The notes beneath the pieces are model-generated. The model had not been told where the DNA came from and searched no databases. It was given only the letters and a program-made list of their open reading frames with translations. The position numbers and the translations under genes were made by a program. A DNA stretch of 64,000 bases from Phallus indusiatus (Eukaryota; Basidiomycota; Agaricomycetes; Phallales; Phallaceae). Positions 1,390 through 34,847 of this stretch are shown in pieces (within the stretch, counting starts at the first letter, position 1; each line of letters starts with the position of its first letter). Location: NCBI GenBank assembly GCA_027605045.1, contig JAQFWX010000032.1, positions 62,001 to 126,000 on the forward strand, written 5' to 3'.

Positions 1390-2708
1390 AATCAAAGAGT
1401 GCAGTTAAAAGATCATGATATTGTAACATTACCGAAACGTACGTATCAAAAAAAATGAAGTTTGTTTTAAAATAGGTATGCTTTTAAGCAAGTTCATTCA
1501 GAGGGGCGCCCGGCGTTCACGTCGTAAAAAATCGTCATAGTTCGGACCATCTTTCACCATGCGCTTCGATGAATCCTATGTTGAACACTGGATACCTGAA
1601 CTAATGTCATTAATGATCAGCCAAGTTCCGATGGATCATGGTGTTTATGGCGGTGAATCGATGACCAGCCAATAGTAGAGGGTAGATTTTTCAACCGCTG
1701 ACCATGATGATAAGACAGCCGGTTATAATTTAAATAACATTCTATAAATATTTTGTTTTACGCATTTCGCGTCCAATAGCGTGAATCGGACGTTCTCTCC
1801 TCCACTCCAGACCCCAGAGAGCGGCGAAGACTTGGCACAAGACCAAATGAGATTCGGCCGCGAGAGCAATAAATATTTTTATCTGCATCTCCGTTAATAA
1901 TATTTTATTCATGAGTCGAGGTTCTTTAGCTGCTACATGATGCGTATAATTCGTATTTGAGAAGTTGAGTCTCAATCATTGTGTTGCCCTGCGCAGTGCC
2001 CCGTCTGTATCTATCCATCACTTGGAGTCCTTGGGGGTTCCGCAGTAACGCAGTCAGAAGTATGATTGAAATTCAAAAAGTCGACCGAGGTGCCTGTTTA
2101 TTTTAAAAAAAGAGTACTGCCAAAGGTTCATGCCGAGTGAGCTCCCGTTCCACGCCACAACAATAATAAAAATAGGTGAACGGGTGAACGGGGGTACTAT
2201 GGTGAGGTGGAAATCATAGCAACCCTGACTTTCGTTTTGATAAAGCCTTCGTGTATTTCCCTTCACATGTTTAGAAAAGGGTGATTTGGAGTGGAATACG
2301 AGTTTGGGATTTTTCACTGCAGCGGAGAACTAGACGCCTTTTTACCCTCGGGCCTAGCCTATCTGGACAAGTCTTTTCTTAGTTAGCTTCCCGTACCTGA
2401 CGCCAATGGATGTATCGATGATGGGATTTTCAAAAGGCTTTCCACATCAAGTGCACTGGTATTGATATTGAGACGTGAGGTATATTATTATAATTATAAT
2501 TATATCACCATGAGATGATCAGCGATTCTTCGCTCTTTTCATATATAAATTGCCTTCTTCCCAGACAAGACAAAACTCACCTGGACCTTTCACATCACCT
2601 CCTCACCCACCCACACTCGCTCTAAAGAGTCACCCGCCCGTCCAACGTGCAATCCGGTTCATTGGTTTTTTTGAATTGATATCACCTCTTGTCTACAAAG
2701 AAAAAAAA
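1390..2708. other. Intergenic region, no gene recognised apart from a TATA box
   Basis: About 1.3 kb between the oxidoreductase and the first small peptide gene. Short open frames on the minus strand (1742-1975, 2054-2317) lack splice context, signal peptides or recognisable motifs. An AT-rich run of TTA/TAA units sits near 2480-2505, and a clear TATA box lies at 2542-2550. Confidence 0.6.
2542..2550 (+). promoter_or_regulatory. TATA box of peptide gene 1
   Basis: TATATAAAT lies 160 bases upstream of the ATG at 2709. It is followed by a C-rich, G-poor leader typical of strongly expressed fungal genes and an A-run directly before the start codon. Confidence 0.55.
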
Positions 2709-2905
2709 ATGCGTCTCTCGTTAATATCCACCTTCATTACTTTGGTCCTTGCTCAATTGAGCGCTGCAGTTCCCGTTGCTCAACCTGGTACGTCCGTCCC
2801 GTCACGTCATACATACTTCAAACTGAGAAGATAACTCATCGACACATAATGACAGACTCCCTTGTCGTCAGAGACGGTGACTTCGTTGACTCCCCTCCAT
2901 GGTAA
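2709..2905 (+). CDS. Tiny secreted peptide precursor 1 (ends SPPW)
   Basis: Unrecognised gene of 42 codons in two exons, 2709-2787 and 2856-2905, joined by a 68-nt GT-AG intron in phase 1. Exon 1 encodes a textbook signal peptide (MRLSLISTFITLVLAQLSAA, cleavage likely after SAA or SAV) plus PVAQP. Exon 2 encodes DSLVVRDGDFVDSPPW and TAA. Cutting after the LVVR motif, as Kex2-like proteases often do in fungal secreted precursors, would release DGDFVDSPPW. Leader, intron phase and Pro-x-Trp end are shared with the genes at 4816 and 6259, which is the main reason to call such a short frame real. The function is unknown; a secreted signalling or antimicrobial peptide is possible. Confidence 0.6.
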
Positions 2906-4159
2906 ATAGGGATATTGGACTATTCATAACCTGTCAATTTGCGAATCGTGTGAGTCAACCGTGATGCCTTGACTCGATCTTGAAAGCTAACGACTGTCCT
3001 TTAGCTTTAGCCCGGTCAATTAATGTTCTCGTTTAGTTTGCTTTGCCCTTGCTAGTTCCTGTTTTTTATTTGCTGTTTATGGACATTTTCTCAGGGAGCC
3101 TTCCGATTCCTGGGTAGTATGGCATACTGTATATTGATTGTGCTATTATTCAGTGAATGTAGACTGCTGCTCAGGGTCTAATCGCACGGACCACCTGTAA
3201 AGACAATGACAACGGAGAGATTTCACCTCGGTTCGAAAAATTCTATTAGTAAAATGAGAAACGAAGCACCAACTTGTTTAGTCCATGGGCCGGCGCTGCT
3301 GTCACCTGTCCTCTCCGGCATTCTCCGGGTAAAGACGGACCTTTTTGAGAACAAGAGTACATACCTGAATGGTGTTCCTGGATTTTTAACCGTTGGTTAT
3401 TCGGCTATCCAAAAGGTTCATTCGCCAGTCAGCAGTGGGGGTCGGAGCAACTCCCAGATTTTTTTTTACAAAGACCTTGAGTTAATTCGATTAGCCGTCT
3501 TTTTTTTTGGGCGGTTAGTATTCCAATTAAAGACACCGCCCAAAAACCGAGTTGGGTGGATTAACAGCAGAAAGGAAGTTTTGAGTTCGGCCGTGTCATC
3601 ATAGATGACGATAAGGGTCCGTCATAGAGAAAATACTTGAAATGGAAACTTATTTCATTTAGTATAGCAAGAAACACGGGGAGAGAAGTCTCGATATTGA
3701 AGGAGCTGATCAAATTCGGACGTTTGTAAGTAGCTTGGAATACCCCCAAACTCAGGCCCAGGGCCAAATTGAACGCGTTAAACTTGAGCTTGATCCGCTA
3801 ATCAAGAGTTCGGGCTTTATTGTACCATATGAATTGAATATTAATTGTCGCAAACGACTTCCACCGTCCAAGACATCGCCGGAAGAGACTTGACCGGGTT
3901 TTTATGTATTCAGATTACAATAGTATGGGACGCTCTCACCGTCAAGCGCCAGTCCGAATAGGTCCGAATCAGCCTGGAAAGAACCAAAGGTACGATAGTA
4001 GGTTGAGAGCACGCTTTTGCAGACTCTTGACCATTTCCCGTTTGTAGTCATGAAAACGGCATGACGCCGTTGTGTCGCATGCTGACCTCGGCTGAATCAT
4101 TCAATCGCCGGTACTGGCCTTTGTGTAGTTCCCTCTAGTTCCCTGCATTTCCAAGCAAG

Positions 4160-4219
4160 TATATAAGCTTGTAGATACTAAAAAAAAAATCCTACGCCAC
4201 CATGGAACGTTTCTTATAA
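4160..4219 (+). other. Possible decayed promoter and start of a fourth peptide gene
   Basis: TATATAAGCTTGT at 4160-4172 closely resembles the TATATATAAGAGCTTGT promoter of the peptide gene at 4816. It is followed by an A-run and CCACCATGG at 4198-4206, but the frame closes after five codons (MERFL, stop). It may be a dead or truncated member of the local family, or chance. Confidence 0.25.
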
Positions 4220-4750
4220 AAATAAATTCTTCTCCTACAGGGAAACCTAGTCAGGAGAAGAGTTTCAAGCACCCTGCTTCCGCCAAACACCGCCAAGGCT
4301 TGACCTTTTCTGAAAATAAAAAAAAAAACACTTGCAAAAAGAGATGGTTAGTATAAACCATTTTAGATGATATCCGCCAGGCTGTCCATGAAACATACTT
4401 GAGCTAGTTTCGTCCAAGTAAGACCGCGCAAGGCACGATTCCGGCACGGAGTATTCTTGGCCGGAATCGTTAAAAAAAATTGGATAACGAGGATTCGTTC
4501 ATCGTGCCTGATTATTAGATAAACTTACACTAAATGACTCGTAATGCCAGTAACATATTTTGAGTTCAACGCGAGACACGTATGTATGTATGTGTTATAC
4601 CCTTGGCGCAAAAAGGTTTTTCTTTTGCCATGATAAGGGGTAAAGGTGGAGCGATATTCAGATCTTGAGTCGTTCAAAAGTCATTTTCGGTCAGGCACTC
4701 CCGGTATCCCTGATCATAACGGTATGTCGTGACCAGCAAAGCACCGTAGG

Positions 4751-4760
4751 TATATATAAG
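4751..4760 (+). promoter_or_regulatory. TATA box of peptide gene 2
   Basis: TATATATAAG sits 56 bases before the ATG at 4816, followed by a CT/CA-rich leader. This is strong core-promoter geometry. Confidence 0.6.
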
Positions 4761-4815
4761 AGCTTGTCTTGTTGTCGCCCCCACCCTGATAGACACAACC
4801 GCAATCGTAACGAAC

Positions 4816-5032
4816 ATGTCGGTCAAATTCCTTGTCAGTTTTGTCGCTGCTTTTCTCTTCGCTCAAGTCAGCGCAGCTCCGACTCCGGGCGGCGAGTACC
4901 ATTCTTCTTCTTCATTTTAAAAGACTCTTTAATTTTCTCTTTTGCTGTAAACTAATACATCTGCATTTCATAGATTTCGGCGTAACCACCCCTGGTTGGA
5001 AACGCTCCCCAAATTCTGAGAATCAGGTGTAG
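4816..5032 (+). CDS. Tiny secreted peptide precursor 2 (TPGW-KR)
   Basis: Unrecognised 44-codon gene with exons 4816-4891 and 4974-5032. Exon 1 gives a signal peptide, MSVKFLVSFVAAFLFAQVSA, then APTPG. Exon 2 gives DFGVTTPGWKRSPNSENQV and TAG. The intron is phase 1, as in the two sister genes, and the split codon again encodes Asp as in gene 1, but the donor would be GC (gcgagt), a GC-AG intron. A GT donor four bases on (gtacca) would put exon 2 in another frame and lose the shared motif, so I prefer GC. The KR is a classical Kex2 site. After Kex2 and carboxypeptidase trimming, the N-terminal product would end TTPGW, matching the Pro-x-Trp ends of the sisters, with SPNSENQV as a trailer. Confidence 0.5.
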
Positions 5033-6258
5033 TACTGAATCTTCTGAACGGCTTTTGTTAGTAAGTTAATTCTATGCTGATGGTCCACGCTATGCAACGT
5101 TTATTAATTGCTGTCAAGTTGCACCTATCCTTATCACAATCGTTTGCAAATGCCTTGGTCTCCTCGAACTTTCTTCTTATCTTCTCTTCATTTTTCGGAG
5201 CATACCCCCTTAAGTTATCGAATGCTCGGTATCTTCCCACTATCCGTTCTTTTCAAGTGGTCTAACCTCTATGAGGTAATTGTCGGGTGTCGACTGACCT
5301 TTTAATAAACATGTACAATCGAAGTGTAGCAAGGTTGATATGTACTTTCTTCCTCTCGGTAGTCGAAAAAAAATGCATTATTGTTCTTGCTTGGGGAATC
5401 ATGCTTTTCTTTTAAAATTTCAATAAACTTAGATCGATTAAACTATGAGCCAGGTGCTTATCTCAACATGTGTTAGGTACCCGGGTAACGGTTATGCACA
5501 GTCGTTAGCTACCCTGTCCGCAGTTAAGGAGTTGAATTGTATGATCCCACAGAAACACAAGATGTACATACATTGGCGAAATATATGGATGGACATAGGC
5601 GTTGTGTGCAGCCGAAGCAATAATATATTAGCAAAGCACGACTTTAGATCTCACTTCTTCCAATCTCGAGGTGTCTGTGGTGTCCCATGGAGAGCCATTT
5701 ACGCTGCGTTTTACGTTTTACTTGATCACGTTCATCGAGGAGCTAATTAGCCCAATGTCAATTGACAAAGTTCATAGAGCTTAATTTCAACATCGAATCC
5801 TAATCGAGAGATGACTTCAAAACCGCGCAGAGAAAAAAAGACCACTCCCCGGCGGATAGATGAACTATGACGACATCGATTTTTGTTCAAAGGAAGGAGA
5901 TACGCTCCTGATCCTAATAGGGCGTCAAAAGCAGAAGCAGAGCAGAAAAAAAAAGATTTCTGATTCGAGATATGTATACATAACTCGATGGAGCAGGCAG
6001 TGAGAAAAACGCTGTGCCCAAACGGAAGTCAGGCTCGGCTCAAATGTGGCTGGCGCTAAACACTGGCGTCTGTGGCGCGTTTAGTCATTCTTGGCGCTAG
6101 ATAGACGAAAGTATTCAGCTGTTTTCCTTTGGACTAAACCATTTAAAAGGGATGACAGGCTGCTTTTTATTCGACGCTTCCCGCTTAGTGTCTCACTCCT
6201 CTGCTTGCACTCTCTTCCTTCAGCCCTCTGCGAAACTCCCCTAGGAAAGATTGACTCT
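5033..6258. other. Intergenic region between peptide genes 2 and 3
   Basis: No supported gene. Open frames at 5058-5305 and 5445-5750 overlap on opposite strands and show no domain, signal peptide or splice logic. A TTTAAAAGG element at 6142-6150 is a weak TATA candidate for the next gene. Confidence 0.5.
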
Positions 6259-6470
6259 ATGGTCATGCAGCGCTTTACCGTTTGGATTGCTTTAGCAGCT
6301 ATCACGCTCGCAGAGTTCGTTTCAGCAGTTCCTATAGTCCTCATCGACGATCAGAACAATGGTGAGTTGCTTATCTACGGCTTATAATATTTTGTTCACT
6401 TTGACTGACTTGCGTTCTTGGTCTGGCAGTTCTCGAAGCACGTCAATCTATCGCTGCACCCAGCTGGTGA
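6259..6470 (+). CDS. Tiny secreted peptide precursor 3 (ends APSW)
   Basis: Unrecognised 47-codon gene with exons 6259-6361 and 6430-6470 and a 68-nt phase-1 GT-AG intron, the same length as in gene 1. Exon 1 encodes a signal peptide, MVMQRFTVWIALAAITLAEF then VSA, followed by a short acidic linker (PIVLIDDQNN). Exon 2 encodes VLEARQSIAAPSW and TGA. LEAR followed by Gln is a frequent processing site in fungal secreted precursors. Cleavage would give QSIAAPSW, whose N-terminal Gln could cyclise to pyroglutamate. Met3 is an alternative start. The function is unknown, but the shared layout with the genes at 2709 and 4816 supports a small paralogous family. Confidence 0.55.
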
Positions 6471-8866
6471 ACTGAACTAAACTTGTTGCCTGTATGTCGT
6501 CCAACTCTAACACGCATCTTTCCATCTAATTATCGTTCTCATAGCAAAAAACAAACATCTGTTCCCCTTCTCTTTGACGAATACTGCTGTTCTGTTGTTT
6601 TGATACCGCGTTATTGCTTTGTCCATTTTTCTTTGGATACTGTAACCCAAAACCTATCATTTTTTTCTCCATTTTCTTAATGAGATTTTTTTTTATGGTT
6701 TATGTATTGTATTACTGTATCAGACGTTGTGCCACTTCGATAGACACCGGGCTAATACTATCTTCGCTCGATTAAGAATAGTCACGAGGCCCCTGTGGCC
6801 ATCCCTTCAATCTTAGCGCAATAGCGAAACGCTGGCCATTGAGTTCACGAGAACCATTCCAATTCAGTTAATGACATCTTTTCAGGGCGTCCGTGCGCAC
6901 ATGCGCCGATATTTTATATTGTATCTCCATCTTATCGGCACTAAATTGGCTGAGAGAACTATGTACATACAGTACATACCTGTTCTGTTCTCAAAAAAGT
7001 ATTGGCTTGTAATTCATTTCAAAACTGAATGTGTTTATATTCACTGGTTCACTGACTGCGGAAGAAAAAGGTGCCTAGGTGACTGATCCGGAAATTCGAA
7101 CTTTTGAAAGCACAGCGCAATTGTTTTATGAGTGCTTTCTCACTGACGGAACGGCGTCGGAACTTTGATGTGGCGCATATGTAAAAACAGGATTCGTCTT
7201 CCATTATATGCGCGCGTCCAGCCTATGTGTGTATGTGTTTATTTGTTCCGCTATCACGCTTGTTATTCCTTATTGTCCAGCCTATAGGAAATTTGGTTTT
7301 GCGGACATATGTAGCCAGACTGAATCCGAATGACGGTGTGGCAATCGTGAGAGGGTTGGACAACCGTGCACATGTGCACTTTGCAATATGTATGTATTTC
7401 ATCTATGAAAACCGGACTAAGTGAACTAAAATATATATATTGACGACCCCCTGATTATTCAAATGCCTCAGAGGGTCTCTTGAATAGCCCAATTTTCAGC
7501 TAAACCATTTTTGAATTGTCCGTGACTCGTGTGCGGCGTGGCATGATAGCAAACACAAAACCAGGTGGACAAATCATATGATGCGTGACTAGAAATTGAA
7601 TTGGTTAGTCATATGCACCAAGCCCCCCCAATGCTTGTACCTTTGCTCTTTGAGCTAGTCTGCTGCCAAACTCTATATCGGCTGGGAGATGGCGCGGACG
7701 GTCATCAGACCGGCTGCCATTGACAGAGCAGGTGAATTCGGAAGTGGTCCAGACACAGTGTTTAGTGAATGCTCTCGTCATCCCGGTTTTACACCGAGAT
7801 TGGGATATGCCGGTATGTTTGTTATCGGATGATTTTATGACGTTATCGTTGGAGTTATGGAGCTATTAAGTTTTCACCATACTCGTCCGCTCAAAACAAT
7901 CTGGTAGACTGTGTTGGAAGAAAACTCGGCTGAATATCTAATTTTCCAGACTGTTGCACTAGCTCCACTTTTGTCTATGAAACCTCGGGACAGTAGACAT
8001 CTTGGGTGAAACATCTAGAAATGGGTAAACTTGTATTGACGGGGCGCGACTGACCACGCTTCCTGAGGCACGCGAGTTGCATGTGAACACCTTGTAGAGG
8101 TTGGACAGGATAACACAATCAAGATAATCATTATGATCAGAAACTGCGAAAAAATGTGGACAGGCATTCCTATAAAATAGAAGAATATTGTCTTTCAGAA
8201 GCCTGAATACCTAGCGCTTCAAATTTTAGCGATCGGGTCAACTCGTACCTTCATCGCGTGAGTGACGTTACACACGGTATACACTTGTGTCCTTCCTCAA
8301 TCGATCTTCTTTCGCTTGAATGAACCACCATTAATACACTTTCAAATTAAACTCAAAGCCACAGCCTCACTTTACACAACCCCGACAAGTTCTAAATCGG
8401 AACGATCGGTGTTGCGACTCTACAGCTTGTAAAGGTACATGAAAGCTGTCAAATTACTAAGTTTTACCTCCTGGTACTCTCGCATAAGTCATGTAGGGAC
8501 TTTCTGTAGCAAGTTAGTATCAAACCCGCGTAGAAGTGCCCAAGTAATACATGTTGCTTTGTTGAGGTTCGTGATCGGCAGCACTTGCGAAAAAAAGCCG
8601 CGGAAGCAAAAAGTCTCACCCCGGTTTTTGCCGCTGACGACGTCTTTTCTTCGAGGTGAGTGTACAATGCCCTTTCCTGTAGTGGATTCATTGATAAACT
8701 CATTGACCTGTTTTGTTTATTTTATTGCGTTTAAACAATACAGACTACTATTCCCAGACACTGATAACAAAAGCTTCGTCAGGCCAGCAGAGCTGACAAG
8801 GATTTCCACTCATTTCTTGACAACTGAAGTTGACGCTTTTCTTCCCGCCTCGACTTGGAATAAGAA
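6471..8866. other. Gene-poor interval of 2.4 kb
   Basis: No supported gene. The longest frame (8439-8885, plus) has no recognisable motif and runs into the promoter and start of the ATP synthase subunit gene. Several short AT or TATG microrepeats are present (for example near 7215-7240 and 7428-7440). Confidence 0.5.
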
Positions 8867-13424: not shown

Positions 13425-16297
13425 ATGAGAGGTCTCAAAAACTTGCTGAGCTTTATTGTCTTTCTCTTTCCCTTGGTGTCCGCTGACGAGGTCATCTACA
13501 CCGATGATGCTCTTGCTTCGCCATGGGAAGACTGGAGCTGGGGGAGCACCATCGACTATGATGCAACCACCATGGCCGAGGGCACAAGCAGTATCTTTGT
13601 AAACTCGACGGAATACTCTGCGTTGTCGCTTGAAACACCGACAGCATTCAACAACACTTTCGCCGGCTTAAGTTTTGACATCTCGGTAAAAAAATATAAC
13701 CTCTGCTATTTTTTACCTCAACTTATTGGAACCTCGTTTGTAGGGAGATCAACCAGATTTGACCATTACGATACAGGATACTGTAGACAACACTCAGTCA
13801 GCTTCTATATCGTTGTCCTCTTTGAGCAATTCGATCACATCCAATAATTTTACCTCAATTCTGCTCAATTTCAACAATATTCCCCCGAATGGTGGCGCTC
13901 TCGTCAGTACTGGTTCTCTTAACCTTTAAGGAGCCGTTGGCATTGATATAATTTTTGTTCCAGGGCAACGGTACTTGGAATCGTATTACTTGGCAAGCCG
14001 GCTCGGATGGCGCTGTTGTGAGTAATATCGAATTTTGTGGTGTCAACTGTTAACTTCACGACGATTGTAGTACTACATCGATAATATTGAGCTCATTTCA
14101 GTTATCACCGTTGCTCCTCAATTCCTGAGTGCTGAACCACTGATGAACAACATCATCGCCGTAACAACAGCCGGAAACGTGAATTTCTCAGCAGTTGCAG
14201 TCAACTTGAACGGTCGTGTAAGAAAAATTTTCTCCAAAATGAAAATCAGAAATATACATACCAAGGTTTATATTCCTGTAGCATCTCGCCGTTGAAAGTA
14301 TAGAGACGATGGTCCCCGCAGACACCCCCGCAATATCCATTACATATCTAACTCTCGCCTCTTCGTTAGCTCCCGGTAATCTCACGATTACTGCTGGCGA
14401 CTCTTCATTTACCTTTGCTCTTCCGGCGAAATCAGATGCTACGTCAGTATTGTTGATTTCCACTTAACGTTCAGTATTGAAACTTTTTTCTTACAGAATC
14501 GACCAATCTGGAACACATCTCATAAATGATCATGTTTATGGTATCAACTTCCCTACAGACGCCAGCTACATCCAAGAACTCGGTGTTACTATATCTAGAT
14601 GGGGAGGTAATGCTGAGACCGCATATAACCCCTTCGGCGGGTTTACCAACGCCGGAAATGACTGGTATTTCGAGAACCGGGTTAACGATGACGGCGATGC
14701 TGATCAATGGATTGAATGGGTTCATGCTGCTGGATCAGACACATTATTGGCTATCCCTGCGTACGACCCAATTATAATTCACAGATAAAAAAAATTGACG
14801 TAGTTCTTTAGCCTCGACTGGGTTGCAAAGGATGCAACTTCATATTCATATCCAGCGACGGTCTATCCTGGTAATTGTATTTTTTTCTGTTGTGATTTCT
14901 AGTCGAATAACAAAATTGAATAGACCAGGAATCTTTTGACCCTTACTTGCCTGATGCTGGTGATGGTCTGTTCCCCAACGGCTCCTACGTTACACCTGTA
15001 CCAAACCAAGAACTCGTTTATATCCCATGGAACACCTCTGCGGCAAAACAATGGCTGACTGGACTCGTCAACAAACCTACCCTAGTAACCATTGACAATG
15101 AAATGGAAATAGCAAGCAACACCCACCAGGATATGCACCCAATGTACGTTTTCTGGATATTTTTTTTATTTATCCCACGTGATTAAAACCCACCCAAGTC
15201 CCATGGACTATGATGAAGAACTTGCTCGCGTTGTAAATTTCTCGATCATTGCCAAGGAGTCTCTTCCAGACGTAAAAGTAGCCGCTCCTTCAACCTGTTC
15301 ATGGTGGTATTGTAAGTTTCCTGACTACCATTTGCCTCAAACATTTTATTTACCTATTTATTTATAAGATTGGACAAGTCAGGTGGGATTCTCCGACAAC
15401 GCTGCACACAACAACACGGATTTCCTTCCTTGGTTCCTGTCAGAAATGAAGGCCGCTGAAACCACTCACGGAAAACGTTTGCTTGACTATTTGGACCTTC
15501 ATTATTATTTCCAAGGAAATACAACTGCAGATGATGCCCCCACCAGGGCTTTACGTATGCGAATGACTCGTTCATTCTGGGACTCTACATATGTCGACGA
15601 ATCTTGGATCGGTACCGACCCCGCTCAGAACACTGAACCTAACCCTAACGTGGTTATGTTAATCCCGAGATTCCAGCAACTGATCGCGGAAAGATACCCG
15701 GGAACTAAATTGTCCGTCAGTGAGTGGGACTCTACAGCAGATTCCGACATCTCTGGTGGTCTTGTTACCGCCGATTCTCTGGGAATTTTCGGTAAATTTG
15801 GACTCGATAGTGCTACTTACTGGTCGGATCCCGATCCAACTAGTCCCGTTGGTGTTGCTTATTGGCTGTACAGAGGGTAAGGAATCAAGTTTCCGTTATT
15901 TCGGTCGGAGTCAATTGACAGTGCATTTAAGTAACGGAACGTACTTCGGAGACCTTAGTTTGACGGTTAACGTCTCGGACTTTGATCCCGATTTCTTGGG
16001 TATATATGCCTCTTCCAGTGAGATCAAAGGCAGAAAAGCCACATCATTGGTGATTGTCAACAAAAACCCGGACGCTCCGGTTTCGTTCGATATTTCCGGG
16101 TTGCCCTCCGGAGAATATCTCTTGAGGCATTTTGGTGGAGAAGCGGGTGTGGCAAAGTTCCAAGTGAGTGTTACTCCATTTTTAAGAATTAGAGTTGACA
16201 TAATACGACTCTTTTCAAGAAAACTTTCCAACTTCATTCTGCTAGCTATATTGTTGTCCCTGCGTATACTGCTGTTTTCTTGCAACAGCAAGTATAA
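13425..16297 (+). CDS. Secreted glycoside hydrolase family 44 (endoglucanase/xyloglucanase)
   Basis: Extracellular beta-1,4-glucanase or xyloglucanase acting on plant cell wall. It starts with a signal peptide (MRGLKNLLSFIVFLFPLVSA), then a carbohydrate-binding-like beta-sandwich region (WEDWSWGSTID to YYIDNIELIS). The GH44 barrel follows: HLINDHVYGINFPTDASYI, then ISRWGGNAETAYNPF, NAGNDWYFENR and VNKPTLVTIDNEMEI, whose Glu fits the acid/base. SVSEWDSTADSD carries the likely nucleophile Glu. After WLYR the last barrel strand reads GNGTYFGDLSL, if the intron 15877-15931 is used; this acceptor restores the family sequence while nearer ones give stops. The final exon encodes KTFQLHSASYIVVPAYTAVF and ends at TAA 16295-16297. 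About ten short introns are present. GH44 is found in bacteria and in many Agaricomycetes. Confidence 0.85.
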
Positions 16298-25642: not shown

Positions 25643-28600
25643 CTACTCTGAGAGAAGCTCAACATTTTCAGTTACCCAATAGGAAGCGTTCAGGTCTTTT
25701 TCCATGTCTTCCTCTTCCACAAGCGGAGACGTTCCTGGCGGGGATGAACTCGCTTGTATGGCAAGTCGAGTTTCAATTTCATCATTCAATAGCATCTAAA
25801 AATATTTTTTACGTCAGTTCTTTTCGACACAGTTCACACCAGAGTTATCTTATCATTTGCTCCAGTTTTCTAGCGAACAAAAAGAAGTCTTACCATGCGT
25901 CTTTTTCCCAGAATATTTGAAAATTGCCCTAGTCTCTCCATCGAAGTCATATTCACCAATGTACTGACATCTGTATGACGAAGCAACAAGGCGGCTGCGT
26001 AAATATTCATTCCAGGAATACAAGAAATATCTTTCTCATCCTGTGTAGAAGTGGAGCCAAGTCAAATAAGCCATGCGTCATGAAGCGTAATAGTAAACGA
26101 CGTGCCTGCGTATATTCATCGGACAACCATTCCGCATTTAAGGCGCCAATCTCGTCGCCTACAAGCCTGGCAAATTTAGCAGCCTCCAAAACATCTCGAG
26201 CATAAGCGTATTTCACAACTGTACTAGGTAATTTAGCTGTCTTTTTTTCATTTACCGTAGACGGAATCATTTCCATGACTGTTAACAGTTTTTTTAAAGT
26301 CTTTATAGCTTTGATAGTCACTGGCGAGAAAGCATATGGTGTCAGATTCCCCTCAGTTAACCGTTGAGGACGCAACGCGGTTTTTGAAGAAAATGCCTCG
26401 AACACGACCATAATAAGCTCGAATCTCCAGGAAAGTACAGCGAGTCGGTCGGCCAGTTTCTCTTTTGAGAGATGAAGAGAGGACAAGGGCACATAAAGTA
26501 AGACAGCATCCACCCCGATAATGAGATCAGCACCGTGAGTTTCACTGGTCTCGCGCTCGACAAGGTCAACACGACATTCCAATTCCAGATGTTGCAACAA
26601 AACCGTTTTCTGTAAAACATTCATAGATGCAATATACTTAAGATTAGTGGCAGGACATGACCAATTCGAAGGTAGTAAAACTGTATTGGCATCGACGATT
26701 TCTGGGGGTATTTCCCTAGGAGGAGATGAAGGTCTATTTATTGACTTTTCTTCGACTGGTAGCGGTGGCGAACAGACCGGAGGTTCGGAGTTACCAGAGT
26801 TAAATTTGTCTCCAGCACGAAGATGGAGAAAGTCGGCGAGAGCCAATTTTGCTGAAGGAAGTCCCTGTTTCCAAGGACATTTCAAATTAGAAGGAGAACT
26901 TCCGTTATCAAGAATATTGCCTGTCGACTTCGCGCCGAAGGGAATATAACCAAAGGAGGAAACTGAATTTCTGAGGACCGCCTTTTTCCCTTGTTGGACA
27001 CAGGAGGAATCGTGCAGACCGATTTCGCCACATTCGATATAAGGACATTCACTATTCCTGACTCTATTAACAACCTCACAATTTTGGGAAGGAGTGCGGT
27101 GGTTGTTGTCTATTTCAGGACTCAGGAGGTGCGGCCGCGGTATGTTTACACCTGCTATGGCCTGACCCGAATTAGCGGACTCCTTTTCATCGTCTACCAC
27201 CGATGAGAGTGCTATGCGTAGCCTCTTGTTAGACTTCCCGGTTAGGACCGGATCTCCAAACCTTTCTTCGTTGTCCTCATCCATATTGACATTTTCCGGA
27301 GTTGTACCATTCGCCATTTTTTGACTTTGTTCTGCTGGAAATGAAGCATGAGCTTTTCGCCTGTCGACGTGAGTTAGTATTATGTCATAATCGCCACCAA
27401 AGGTATTAGTAAATTTCATCGAGGGATCATCCTCATGCTCTACATTAGTATGTGTCTTGCTCTGTTTTTCCAAGAGGGACACAATGTCCTGAATGCATGC
27501 TCCACTTGAGGCGTCTAACTCGGGTGCAGTTGACGGGAAGAATGAATTTGTATTGGAAAGTTCTTCGGTGGTTGGGACCCGAGACCCAAAATTAAAAGGT
27601 CTAGTGGGGATGGCATCACAAGACTTTTAAAAGGTTTGTAAAATGGTAATACCTCCAGGATAATTCGATGTTTAGTGATTGAGTACCAGAAACTTTTTTC
27701 AGCGCGAGAACCGAGACAGTGGGTTTGGCCTCTGAACCGGCGTTGGTCGGGGCACAAGTGAGAGACGGTGGAGTATTCGGTAGAATTGGGCAAGAAGGAG
27801 AAGGTGGATGTATGGAAGGATCCTTCATTCTGGGGACTAGAGAGAAAGTGGCCAATTATGTTAGATGTCAATTGGCTGCGATGGGAGAGTACTATACCTT
27901 CCATCATCAGCGTCTCCTTCTCTTCCAATCGCTCGGATAGAATCCAATCTTCAGGAGATTCATCATGAACCGGAGCGCACACTGTCTCGATCAATGTCCG
28001 AAGCCTTTCGGACGTCACTTTAGGTTTGATAGATGTTACTGACTGCTCCGGTTGTCTGGTGCTTAGAGAATGAACTACACGACTCCTAGACGGCTGTCCT
28101 AGAGTTGACGATGGAACCTCTGGATGAGAAGACTGGGGTTCACCCGAGTCAGAAGATGGTATTGCATCTATGCCAGGTAATAGAGGTGATAAGAATTCGC
28201 AAAGGCTAAATTTGTTGTGCATTCAAAATAATGCTTCCATAGTGATGAATGTTCACATACTTTCCTGTATCGTTCCTGCCGTGCTTAGCAGAGTCTACTC
28301 CTGGATGCAAGACGCGAGGAATTAAATACTCATCTAGAAGGCATTAGTCGGGATAGAAATCGAAATTAAACTAGCATACCCATTTTAGGCGTGGGAGATT
28401 CATGAGGGGGCGTTAAAGCGAATAGTTCATCGAATTCGGTCGTTTGTGAACTATTATCCAGGGAGGGTGTGTCTGAAAAAGCTTCGGAAAAAGTAGCTGT
28501 TTCGAGGTTCACCATTAGAAGGTAATATTTAACCGCCAGAGGATCTTTTCACGTACTCCATCCATTAAGAACCTGCATGTGCTTCTTCGAAATTTCTTCA

Positions 28601-32446: not shown

Positions 32447-33621
32447 TTATATTCTGTTCAAAAATTCAAAGATACTGTCAACGACCTCTTTTGGTCTTTC
32501 CTGCTGAACCCAATGACCAGCTCCCTTTATGAATTTACAACCTTCATTTCCAGGGGCCATTTTGGGACACGCAAGTCTCATACGGTCCAGTTCTCCTGGT
32601 GAATTATACCTGCCCCAGTCCTTTTCCCCGCAAACGAAAAGAACCGGGACATCAATTAGCTTGTTCATGAATGGAAAAAGTTCGACTTGAGGGATAATAC
32701 GATAGTTATAGAAATTCAGACCGCCTTGGAAAGTCGTCCGCCCGTACTCTCCAGCGAAAACGGCGAGATCTTCTTCAGTGAGCCATGGAGGAGCCACGGA
32801 AGGCGTATGAGGCAAGACGACTTCGGGCATAGATTTGTCGACTGGCATGACATAATACTCGGGTAATTTGGCGAGTTCAAACGCAGACCATTCTTTCAGA
32901 GGCTTAGGATCGTTGTGAGACCAGTCCGCGCTCTTCATGTGAAAGTAGCCTAGAAAGAAAGAATGAAGGCCCTGTGCAGGGTTCATCATGTCTCTGTTGG
33001 CTACTAGAGAGGGGTCGCAAAAGTACTCGGCATAGTGTTTACGTGCTGGCGACAGGGAGCGTAGATCAGATAGAATCTGTGGTATGTTCGGTGCCGGCGA
33101 GGACGACGGTAGCAAGTTGGATCGAGGGGGACCGGGAAAGGGTGCGCTCATGATGACGGCGGACTTGAAGAGATCAGGCCGGACGAGGGCGCAGTAGGCA
33201 GCGACGCGACTCCCAAAGTCATGGCCTATTATCGAACGGACAACGCTATATCCCAGACTGTATGCAAGGGCAATGACGTCTGTCACGAGGTTGAACATCT
33301 TGAACGACGCTGTGTCCGCAGCGCTCCACCCCGTTGTCCGTCCAAAGCCTCGCAAGTCTGGCGCGACAACATACGCATCCAGCTTACTAGCCAGTGGCAG
33401 CATAACGTGTCGATATGAATACGCGCTTTGACTTGTTCAACCTCCATCTCGCAAGCAATAAAGACGACGACAACTCACATTTCTGGAAACCCGTGCAGTA
33501 AAATCAACAACGGCTTTCCTTTCTCTCCTGCTTCCAAGACATGCATGTCCAGCCCATTCACATCCGCTATCATTCGAGAGCGAATGCCATCTGGGAGATT
33601 CAATGGTAATAACGTCGCCAT
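32447..33621 (-). CDS. Alpha/beta hydrolase, epoxide hydrolase type
   Basis: Soluble-type epoxide hydrolase or related alpha/beta hydrolase. Two exons, split just after LLILLHGFPEM. I take the start at MATLLPLNLPDGIRSRMIAD (33619-33621). An upstream Met (33699) would overlap the divergent phosphatase gene. Motifs: HGFPE oxyanion loop, SYSYRHVMLPLA, PDLRGFGRT, nucleophile elbow GHDFGSR (Asp), a cap domain around WSHNDPKPLKEWSAFELAKL, ELFPFMNKLIDVPVLFVCGE with the Asp of the acid position, and GAGHWVQQERP (catalytic His). These fit an Asp-nucleophile epoxide hydrolase. About 345 residues. No signal peptide, so intracellular. Substrate unknown. Confidence 0.85.
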
Positions 33622-33686
33622 CAAGTAACCTATCACTTGGGCGTCTCCCAATTCGACGTCTCCTCTCCGCCAATTCGCTCGTTCAT
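33622..33686. promoter_or_regulatory. 65-bp divergent promoter between epoxide hydrolase and tyrosine phosphatase
   Basis: The preferred start codons of the two divergent genes are only 65 bases apart. No TATA box was seen. The pair probably shares control elements. Confidence 0.5.
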
Positions 33687-34847
33687 ATGCCTCCTCCATC
33701 TTGGTTACAGTCGGCGACTCAGAAATCAGCCTTATCGCTCACCCTTCATACTCTCGATTACCGCGAGCAACAGCGACAACTTGCGCGACTGGGCCAGGAT
33801 TCATTCGTAACCTCAACATCGTCGTCCGCGTCCGCGTCCACCTCAACTGAATCATCGTCAGGAATTCCAGCCTACATCAGGGCGCATTACTCGTGTGCAG
33901 TTGGTCAGCTCCCCGCGCATAGACACAAGAATCGTTATATTGCTTTGGAGCCGTATGATCGGACAAGGGTGAAAGTTCCATCCCGTCCAGACGGTCTCCT
34001 TGGCAACGACGATGCTGACGACGCCGATGACGAAAGGTACATTAACGCGAATTGGGTACGCGAATTATGCGGAGGAAAATACTGGATTGCATCGCAAGCA
34101 CCACTGCCAAACACGTTCCATGCCTTTCTGACCCTCTGTATGACTCGCGCCTCACCACATCGACAGCGTGTCCACACGATCGTTCAACTCACTATGCCTG
34201 TTGAAAACGGCCGAAGAAGAGCCCATAAATATTTCTCTCCTCAAATCGAGAATTTTATTGTTCCCCCAGAATCGGACTGCGATCCAGCTCTCCCCAGTAT
34301 TCATGTTCGCGTCGAATCCGAGGAAGACCTTCCTGATGCTCGATGTGTCCTGACTGACCTCCGCCTCAGATGGTATGATCAACAACAACAGCAACCCATA
34401 GGTCAAGAATTCCAAGCTACCCATCTACTTTACACAGGCTGGCCAGACTTTGGCGTCCCGTCTGACAATGAATCCATCCTCAACTTTGTTCGTCTCGTAG
34501 AACGGGTGAACAACCGACATCTCAACGCTATACCTTCAGAACCCAACATCAGTCCTCCACCATTGATTCATTGTTCAGCAGGAGTAGGCCGCACAGGATC
34601 TTTCATCGCTCTTTCTTCCGTTCTTCGAGCTTATTCCCTTTTAACTTCCCACCGATCCGCATCCAACCCGTCTTTTCCGCCGCCATTACCAACATCTCCA
34701 CTTGGTCCACTGTCTTCAAAGTTCAAAAACGACATCGTAGCTCATGAGATTGATGCCCTGAGAGAACAACGTCAACGGATGGTCGAAAGAGACGAACAAG
34801 CGACATGGGTATATCAAGCTCTCATTGACGCCTTTAACGGTTTATAA
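33687..34847 (+). CDS. Classical protein tyrosine phosphatase (PTP)
   Basis: Intronless gene of 386 codons for a phosphotyrosine phosphatase; start MPPPSWLQSATQKSALSLTL. Motifs in order: HKNRYIALEPYDRTRVKVP (the KNRY loop that contacts phosphotyrosine), DDERYINANWVRELCGGKYW and IASQAPLPNTFHAF, YTGWPDFGVPSD (WPD loop with general acid Asp), and HCSAGVGRTGSFIALSSVL, the HC(x)5R active-site P-loop. The Q-loop helix reads LREQRQRMVERDEQATWVYQ, where the usual Gln-Thr pair after MV is replaced by Glu-Arg, though a Gln follows. The N-terminus has a Ser-rich stretch near residues 37-60. Substrates unknown; yeast relatives act on MAP kinases. Confidence 0.93.
   Translation: MPPPSWLQSATQKSALSLTLHTLDYREQQRQLARLGQDSFVTSTSSSASASTSTESSSGIPAYIRAHYSCAVGQLPAHRHKNRYIALEPYDRTRVKVPSRPDGLLGNDDADDADDERYINANWVRELCGGKYWIASQAPLPNTFHAFLTLCMTRASPHRQRVHTIVQLTMPVENGRRRAHKYFSPQIENFIVPPESDCDPALPSIHVRVESEEDLPDARCVLTDLRLRWYDQQQQQPIGQEFQATHLLYTGWPDFGVPSDNESILNFVRLVERVNNRHLNAIPSEPNISPPPLIHCSAGVGRTGSFIALSSVLRAYSLLTSHRSASNPSFPPPLPTSPLGPLSSKFKNDIVAHEIDALREQRQRMVERDEQATWVYQALIDAFNGL

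Follow-up and report, generated by a model that had tools for sequence, protein, structure and literature searches.

Three tandem genes of Phallus indusiatus as candidate minimal precursors of secreted peptides with a C-terminal Trp

Secreted peptides with a C-terminal Trp, several of them with a P-S-W tail, have been detected by mass spectrometry in Coprinopsis cinerea, Lentinula and Pleurotus, where they derive from KEX2-processed repeat proteins (KEPs) (PMC9769878). Expression of the Coprinopsis KEP 490115 in Pichia yielded QMRPPSW and (pyro)QYKAPSW, GPPAPSW and DDDPEGPPAPSW were found in Coprinopsis culture fluid, and AADW-ended peptides in fruiting bodies of Lentinula and Pleurotus (PMC9769878). 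Many basidiomycete KEPs combine STE13 motifs with cores carrying a C-terminal Trp, and products of cleavage at a single Arg are recorded among the mushroom KEP peptides (PMC9769878). Here we describe a cluster of three tiny two-exon genes, designated genes 1 to 3, whose predicted peptides end in Pro-x-Trp (P-x-W). They are located in a stretch of 64,000 nucleotides from Phallus indusiatus (GenBank assembly GCA_027605045.1, contig JAQFWX010000032.1, positions 62,001 to 126,000 of the forward strand), which is called the window and is numbered from its first letter. The observation is real and tidy, and constitutes a minimal, tandem form of the known, functionally unexplained Trp-ended secreted peptides of basidiomycetes. 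It is the single-core tandem architecture that sets genes 1 to 3 apart from the described Trp-ended peptides.

Short Trp-ended peptides (AADW, P-S-W, Y-P-W, P-C-W) recur in Lentinula, Pleurotus, Coprinopsis, Cryptococcus and, as a prediction, Trichosporon. Qsp1 of Cryptococcus neoformans is synthesized as a secreted pro-peptide with an 11-residue product ending in Y-P-W (PMC5959073); the protease Pqp1 matures it extracellularly, and the transporter Opt1 takes it up (PMC7537855). The 2022 KEP paper mentions Qsp1 not once (PMC9769878). Alpha-pheromone-like precursors, one of them with a P-C-W tail, have also been described in Basidiomycota (PMC6339444). The tail is not general, since some Coprinopsis peptides lack the terminal Trp (PMC9769878). 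KEP surveys filter for repeats between KEX2 sites (PMC9769878, PMC6339444, PMC7329392), and single-core precursors of 42–47 residues would therefore be missed by design.

The original prediction had postulated three plus-strand genes of two exons each, coding for 42–47 residues on a common plan. Spliced translation confirmed this architecture at the coordinates listed below, including the phase-1 intron of all three genes, the intron length of 68 nt in genes 1 and 3, the split Asp codon in genes 1 and 2, and the core tails SPPW, TPGW (followed by KR) and APSW.

2542..2547, plus strand: TATA-like box TATATA, 167 nt 5' of the gene 1 ATG (a consensus match only)
2709..2905, plus strand: gene 1, coding sequence with intron, 42 residues ending in SPPW and stop (spliced translation)
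2788..2855, plus strand: intron of gene 1, 68 nt, GT-AG, GTACGT...GACAG, phase 1, within an Asp codon
2873..2902, plus strand: predicted core DGDFVDSPPW of gene 1, 3' of a single Arg (VVR), with putative cleavage judged from the sequence
4751..4756, plus strand: TATA-like box TATATA, 65 nt 5' of the gene 2 ATG (a consensus match only)
4816..5032, plus strand: gene 2, coding sequence with intron, 44 residues, with TPGW, KR and then 8 residues
4892..4973, plus strand: intron of gene 2, 82 nt, GC-AG, GCGAGT...CATAG, phase 1, within an Asp codon
4976..4999, plus strand: predicted core FGVTTPGW of gene 2 (exon 2), preceded by Gly-Asp with the Asp codon split by the intron; putative cleavage
5000..5005, plus strand: Lys-Arg, a KEX2-type site immediately 3' of the gene 2 Trp (read from the sequence)
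6142..6147, plus strand: AT-rich motif TTTAAA, 117 nt 5' of the gene 3 ATG (a weak consensus match only)
6259..6470, plus strand: gene 3, coding sequence with intron, 47 residues ending in APSW and stop, or 45 residues from the in-frame ATG at 6265
6362..6429, plus strand: intron of gene 3, 68 nt, GT-AG, GTGAGT...GGCAG, phase 1
6444..6467, plus strand: predicted core QSIAAPSW of gene 3, 3' of a single Arg (LEAR), with putative cleavage by analogy with PMC9769878

The exons comprise positions 2709-2787 and 2856-2905 in gene 1 (the stop codon ends at 2905), 4816-4891 and 4974-5032 in gene 2, and 6259-6361 and 6430-6470 in gene 3. The spliced translations are MRLSLISTFITLVLAQLSAAVPVAQPDSLVVRDGDFVDSPPW, MSVKFLVSFVAAFLFAQVSAAPTPGDFGVTTPGWKRSPNSENQV and MVMQRFTVWIALAAITLAEFVSAVPIVLIDDQNNVLEARQSIAAPSW, respectively. 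Each of the three precursors has a signal-like start, namely a hydrophobic N-terminus with small residues at the likely cleavage site, as judged by a simple script and not by SignalP. X-P/X-A pairs follow the likely signal-peptidase site and not a dibasic site. None of the three two-exon products contains a Cys or a second core, and the predicted cores are short and acidic or neutral. The only dibasic site is the KR following the Trp of gene 2. As modelled, the precursors of genes 1 and 3 end in Trp. The Trp of gene 2 lies inside the precursor, with KR and 8 further residues behind it, and is predicted to become terminal after removal of KR.

The GC content is 48–54% in the exons, 31–44% in the introns and about 43% in the flanks. 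The donors GTACGT (gene 1) and GTGAGT (gene 3) conform to the usual pattern, as does GCGAGT of gene 2 apart from GC in place of GT, and at least one YTRAY branch motif is present in the introns of both gene 2 and gene 3. The dependence of gene 2 on a GC donor is a point that the original prediction did not contain. This donor is not very suspicious, since a second GC-AG intron lies in the quinone-oxidoreductase-like gene upstream of the cluster, giving two such introns within 5 kb. The best fit for that intron (569-668, 100 nt) is GCAAGT...TTTGATAG; of the joins tried, it is the one with the GC donor that restores the glycine-rich A-A-G-G-x-G motif of the oxidoreductase.

The frequency of such a gene plan was assessed with a scanner that looked for a signal-like start, an intron of 45–130 nt in which a loosely defined branch-like motif occurs, and a second exon whose P-x-W end precedes a stop codon or a dibasic pair. 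It was applied to both strands of 264 kb, consisting of the 64-kb window and 20 stretches of 10 kb from the same contig. Exactly three matches were obtained, which are genes 1 to 3, all on one strand and within one patch of 3.8 kb. In 200 dinucleotide-preserving shuffles of the same 264 kb the mean was 0.09 matches and the maximum 2, and none of the 200 reached three. Nothing in the scanner favours matches that share a strand or lie within 3.8 kb of each other. A looser scan for tiny two-exon secreted-like frames, which placed no condition on the tail, gave 70 places. Among these, a Trp-stop end is found in two (genes 1 and 3) and P-x-W before a stop codon or KR in three (genes 1 to 3), while in three more a Trp that is not part of a P-x-W precedes a dibasic pair. 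That the three genes are chance open frames in intergenic DNA is thus most improbable. Such an origin would fit their very short length, the fact that they are known from sequence alone and the false matches that the scanner yields in real DNA, as seen at a locus discussed below. It does not fit the outcome of the shuffles, nor the combination of one patch, one strand, introns with donor- and acceptor-like ends, and AT-rich boxes 5' of the genes.

The original prediction had further proposed that the genes are paralogous. Pairwise scores were compared with 1000 shuffles each, in which the composition of the signal region and of the rest was kept. The score of genes 1 and 2 was reached by 3 of 1000 shuffles and that of genes 1 and 3 by 9 of 1000. 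Together with the common plan, these two pairs support paralogy, which is likely, not proven; the third pair, described below, lends it no support.

We consider it somewhat probable that genes 1 to 3 are tandem, minimal, single-core precursors for secreted signalling peptides with a C-terminal Trp, and a secreted signalling-type product is, we infer, the best reading of the three genes. As diverged tandem paralogues, they would each be transcribed, spliced and translated to yield a single short peptide that is secreted and ends in a free Trp. The signal peptide would be removed first. The spacer would be shortened next: genes 1 and 3 offer a single Arg for cleavage, and the X-Pro/X-Ala pairs (gene 1, VP-VA-QP; gene 2, AP-TP; gene 3, VP) may be taken off by a dipeptidyl aminopeptidase of the STE13 type. 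For gene 2, KEX2 would cut after Lys-Arg and KEX1 would remove both basic residues; P-G-W with KR directly behind it is the arrangement required for KEX2/KEX1 to produce a C-terminal Trp. A stop codon (genes 1 and 3) and KEX2/KEX1 (gene 2) would thus both generate a P-x-W terminus, and the existence of two routes to the same free Trp suggests that this end matters. The released peptides are predicted to be about DGDFVDSPPW, GDFGVTTPGW and QSIAAPSW, and the N-terminal Gln of the last one could be converted to pyroglutamate, by analogy. They may serve as extracellular signals specific to a species or a stage, comparable to Qsp1 and, supposedly, to the Trp-ended peptides of other mushrooms, and either a receptor or an importer of the oligopeptide-transporter (OPT) type may perceive them. 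Of this scheme, the sequence itself shows the frames, the intron signals, the clustering and the encoded tail, whereas expression, splicing, processing, secretion and perception are inferred.

Among the closest described systems are the Coprinopsis KEPs 490115 and 447393, whose secreted precursors, short P-S-W-ended peptides and products of single-Arg cleavage (PMC9769878) resemble what is predicted for genes 1 to 3. The predicted QSIAAPSW of gene 3 and the KEP peptide QYKAPSW have the N-terminal Gln and the last four residues in common. In KEPs, however, repeated cores lie between dibasic sites, whereas genes 1 to 3 have one core per 42–47 residues and are three genes in tandem. The peptides of KEP 447393 derive from its non-repetitive C-terminus (PMC9769878). 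The three precursors have a predicted signal peptide, as KEPs do, and lack repeated cores and core-flanking dibasic sites; they should therefore not be filed as KEPs. STE13 pairs after a dibasic site, a feature of some Trp-ended KEPs, are likewise absent. The AADW peptides of Lentinula edodes and Pleurotus resemble the predicted products in being short and ending in Trp, and Pleurotus KEP precursors contain STE13-type X-P/X-A pairs as genes 1 to 3 do; in contrast, the Lentinula and Pleurotus peptides stem from repeat precursors and their tail is A-A-D-W instead of P-x-W (PMC9769878). The original prediction knew of no named family that fits, a statement which holds for the single-core architecture and no longer for the predicted product, as C-terminal-Trp secreted peptides of mushrooms are a described kind (PMC9769878). 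In the openly accessible literature, figures in supplements aside, we found no description of a tandem set of single-core precursors with a P-x-W end.

The D-F-G...P-G-W of gene 2 resembles Qsp1 by eye only, the peptides being too short for a sequence comparison. Unlike genes 1 to 3, Qsp1 has no P-x-W, and for Qsp1 the route via Pqp1 and Opt1 is known (PMC7537855). Ascomycete alpha-type pheromone precursors also have a signal peptide, trimming in the manner of KEX2/STE13 and a short, minimally modified peptide; they differ in their repeated cores between dibasic sites and in the receptor STE2. The a-type pheromones of basidiomycetes are made from small precursors with a CaaX end, often encoded in clustered genes, and in precursor size and clustering genes 1 to 3 are similar. 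These pheromones are synthesized in the cytoplasm, prenylated and exported by an ABC transporter (PMC9769878). In contrast to a CaaX box and a missing signal peptide, the two-exon products of genes 1 to 3 contain no Cys and have signal-like starts.

A number of observations weigh against the proposed signalling precursors, and they are collected in this and the following paragraphs. The thresholds of the scanner were set when the three genes were already known, so that the exact odds should not be over-read. The score of genes 2 and 3 was reached by 252 of 1000 shuffles and is no better than these. A YTRAY branch motif is absent from the intron of gene 1, which contains only CTGA and passes on the looser CTRA. 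Genes 1 and 3 have no dibasic site. The genome contains one match to a KEX2-type P-domain exon, compared to the three kex2 genes described for Coprinopsis and other agaricomycetes (PMC9769878).

The terminal Trp itself can be read in another way. TGG followed by TAA or TGA always contains G/GTRA, and any Trp-stop is therefore readable as a splice donor. For genes 1 and 3 the donors would be TG/GTAAAT and TG/GTGAAC; a third exon would follow, and P-x-W would be an artefact of intron read-through. Downstream, a branch-like CTAAC motif is followed by YAG acceptors with an open frame, at 3004, 3010, 3036 and 3055 in gene 1 and at 6544 in gene 3, whereas the accepted intron of gene 1 has no such branch motif. 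The third exon would replace the Trp by a Cys, and one variant of gene 1 would end in C-P-V-N, with the Cys at the CaaX position. Taken singly, the donor hexamers do not separate: an intron-like 3' end follows GTAAAT in 12 of 157 cases and GTGAAC in 13 of 130, compared to 7 of 108 for GTACGT, the donor of gene 1, which is thus no better, and 15 of 129 for GTGAGT. That read-through can imitate the gene plan was seen when the scanner was applied to 78 kb of DNA from 27 further loci, most of which had been chosen for a match to P-x-W patterns. Apart from genes 1 to 3 in overlapping loci, it returned one match (L027, around 1290-1540), a frame running from a start to PAW-RR. Upon full reading, it turned out to be the intron read-through of a larger, multi-exon secreted protein, cupredoxin-like by eye, and was rejected. 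It is a real case of a P-x-W frame produced in this manner.

Read-through, although the foremost of the alternatives considered, is nevertheless an unlikely explanation for genes 1 and 3. A G at position +5 is usually conserved in splice donors, and it is missing in both Trp-stop donors. Grouped by class, 80 of 875 GT[AG]NGT sites have an intron-like 3' end behind them, in excess of the overall rate of 5.1%, whereas GT[AG]NAT (56 of 1058) and GT[AG]NAC (44 of 727) show little or no excess. The additional exons would add only 3 to 26 residues to gene 1 and 44 to gene 3. Moreover, the P-G-W of gene 2 is followed by KR and involves no donor of this kind, and the stretch 40–160 nt past the end of the gene contains no YAG acceptor. 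Finally, APSW is an observed C-terminus of Coprinopsis peptides (PMC9769878).

Also on the negative side are the searches for relatives. An alignment of the three precursors gave one candidate in a protein collection rich in Agaricomycete proteins and no homologue at E-values up to 10; gene 3 alone gave no candidate there, and no Pfam family matched any of the three precursors at E-values up to 1. The protein search requires shared words of five residues and is weak for proteins of about 45 residues, so that its silence is not evidence of absence. A second haplotype copy was not found: in the DNA search, the window segments 2600-4000, 4500-8000 and 26000-28200 had no match other than themselves. 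A contig of 155,818 bases, which pairs with another part of C132, is too short to reach the cluster.

Further members were sought by DNA pattern searches of the whole genome, each paired with a reversed-pattern control; the patterns are narrow, and more members may exist. W-K-[RS]...P-x-W-K-[RS] gave no match (control 2) and W-R-[RS]...P-x-W plus a basic residue gave 12 (control 7). All 12 loci of the latter, which are among the 27 mentioned above, were run through the scanner and contained no new member. The eight matches of [AP]-Q-x2-[AP]-P-x-W (control 4) represent five distinct sequences; four of them, of which one copy each was read with its flanks, are not members, and the fifth has an in-frame stop. 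[RS]-Q-x3-[AP]-P-x-W gave four matches including gene 3 (control 5). Two of the three others are one repeated sequence, which by eye is GRASP-like in another frame (one copy read), and the remaining one has no signal frame. D-F-[VADEG]-x2-P-x-W matched five times including gene 1 (control 7), and [DN]-F-G-x3-P-x-W four times including gene 2 (control 6). The seven other matches of these two patterns comprise two repeated pairs, of which one copy each was read and is not a member, and three sequences with in-frame stops. Thus, no further family member was seen among the pattern matches read, and the counts lie at or somewhat above the control level.

The lack of a homologue in the protein collection, the single core and the small number of basic sites might also indicate that genes 1 to 3 are non-functional remnants of a repeat-type KEP after loss of its repeats. 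This is quite improbable, as all three frames and tails are intact. In addition, a decayed array might leave DNA repeats, and the segment 1400-8900 matches only itself in the DNA searched at E-values up to 1e-5.

With respect to function, six Coprinopsis KEP knockouts had no visible phenotype (PMC9769878), and a signalling role of this peptide class is therefore itself unproven. The authors, who found no phenotype in axenic culture, suggest an interaction with the biotic environment and leave open what senses the mushroom peptides (PMC9769878). Accordingly, the products could be defence or effector peptides, antimicrobial or directed against animals, plants or competing fungi, rather than signals; defence genes often encode small secreted peptides that have diverged in tandem arrays. 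We regard such a role as improbable, since short, Cys-free cores of acidic or neutral character, as predicted here, differ from cationic or disulphide-rich antimicrobial peptides.

The cluster is placed between the oxidoreductase-like gene and the gene for the e-subunit of ATP synthase. Three of the four exon pieces of the former match the Pfam families ADH_N, ADH_zinc_N or, below the cut-off, ADH_zinc_N_2, and the gene matches two quinone oxidoreductases in the PDB with an E-value of about 6e-4. Beyond the ATP synthase gene, an exon of glycoside hydrolase family 44 is found at 15368-15877 (Pfam E-value 1.5e-15). For a protein-tyrosine-phosphatase frame at 33462-34844, the best named relative is from the stinkhorn Clathrus columnatus (72% identity), followed by Hysterangium, Ramaria and Sphaerobolus; one further sequence matches at 92%. 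Clathrus belongs to the Phallales (Phallomycetidae). In a Termitomyces gene model (P0045), this phosphatase domain is fused to zinc-dehydrogenase domains, and the phosphatase/dehydrogenase neighbourhood is perhaps conserved across Agaricomycetes.

The genome assembly comprises 67.2 Mb in 206 contigs; the genome of Clathrus columnatus is reported at 36.51 Mb (PMC8830316). Matches to oligopeptide transporters occur in pairs of nearly equal score on different contigs (e.g. C2/C150, C126/C191, C112/C128 and C132/C187), and several of the P-x-W pattern matches come in identical pairs as well. The assembly therefore looks like a partly phased dikaryon with two haplotypes. In total, 76 matches to OPT-transporter exons were found in the genome. 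The KEX2 exon and the OPT complement permit the proposed processing and import and do not support them specifically. A search of the genome for a STE2-type receptor was empty; since it was also empty for control genomes, this result has no weight.

It is possible, though this is a tentative idea, that Qsp1, the mushroom KEPs and genes 1 to 3 belong to one signalling class found throughout the basidiomycetes, in which a free C-terminal Trp is read by a common transporter or receptor. The locus of Phallus indusiatus would then be a stripped-down set of three words, encoded as tandem single-core genes that arrive at the same tail via a stop codon or KEX2/KEX1. For scans for P-x-W genes of the type used here, the read-through frame at L027 is a warning. 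If the three genes are real, mushroom genomes may harbour a hidden set of peptide signals, and the shared free C-terminal Trp would be a simple handle for finding what senses such peptides.

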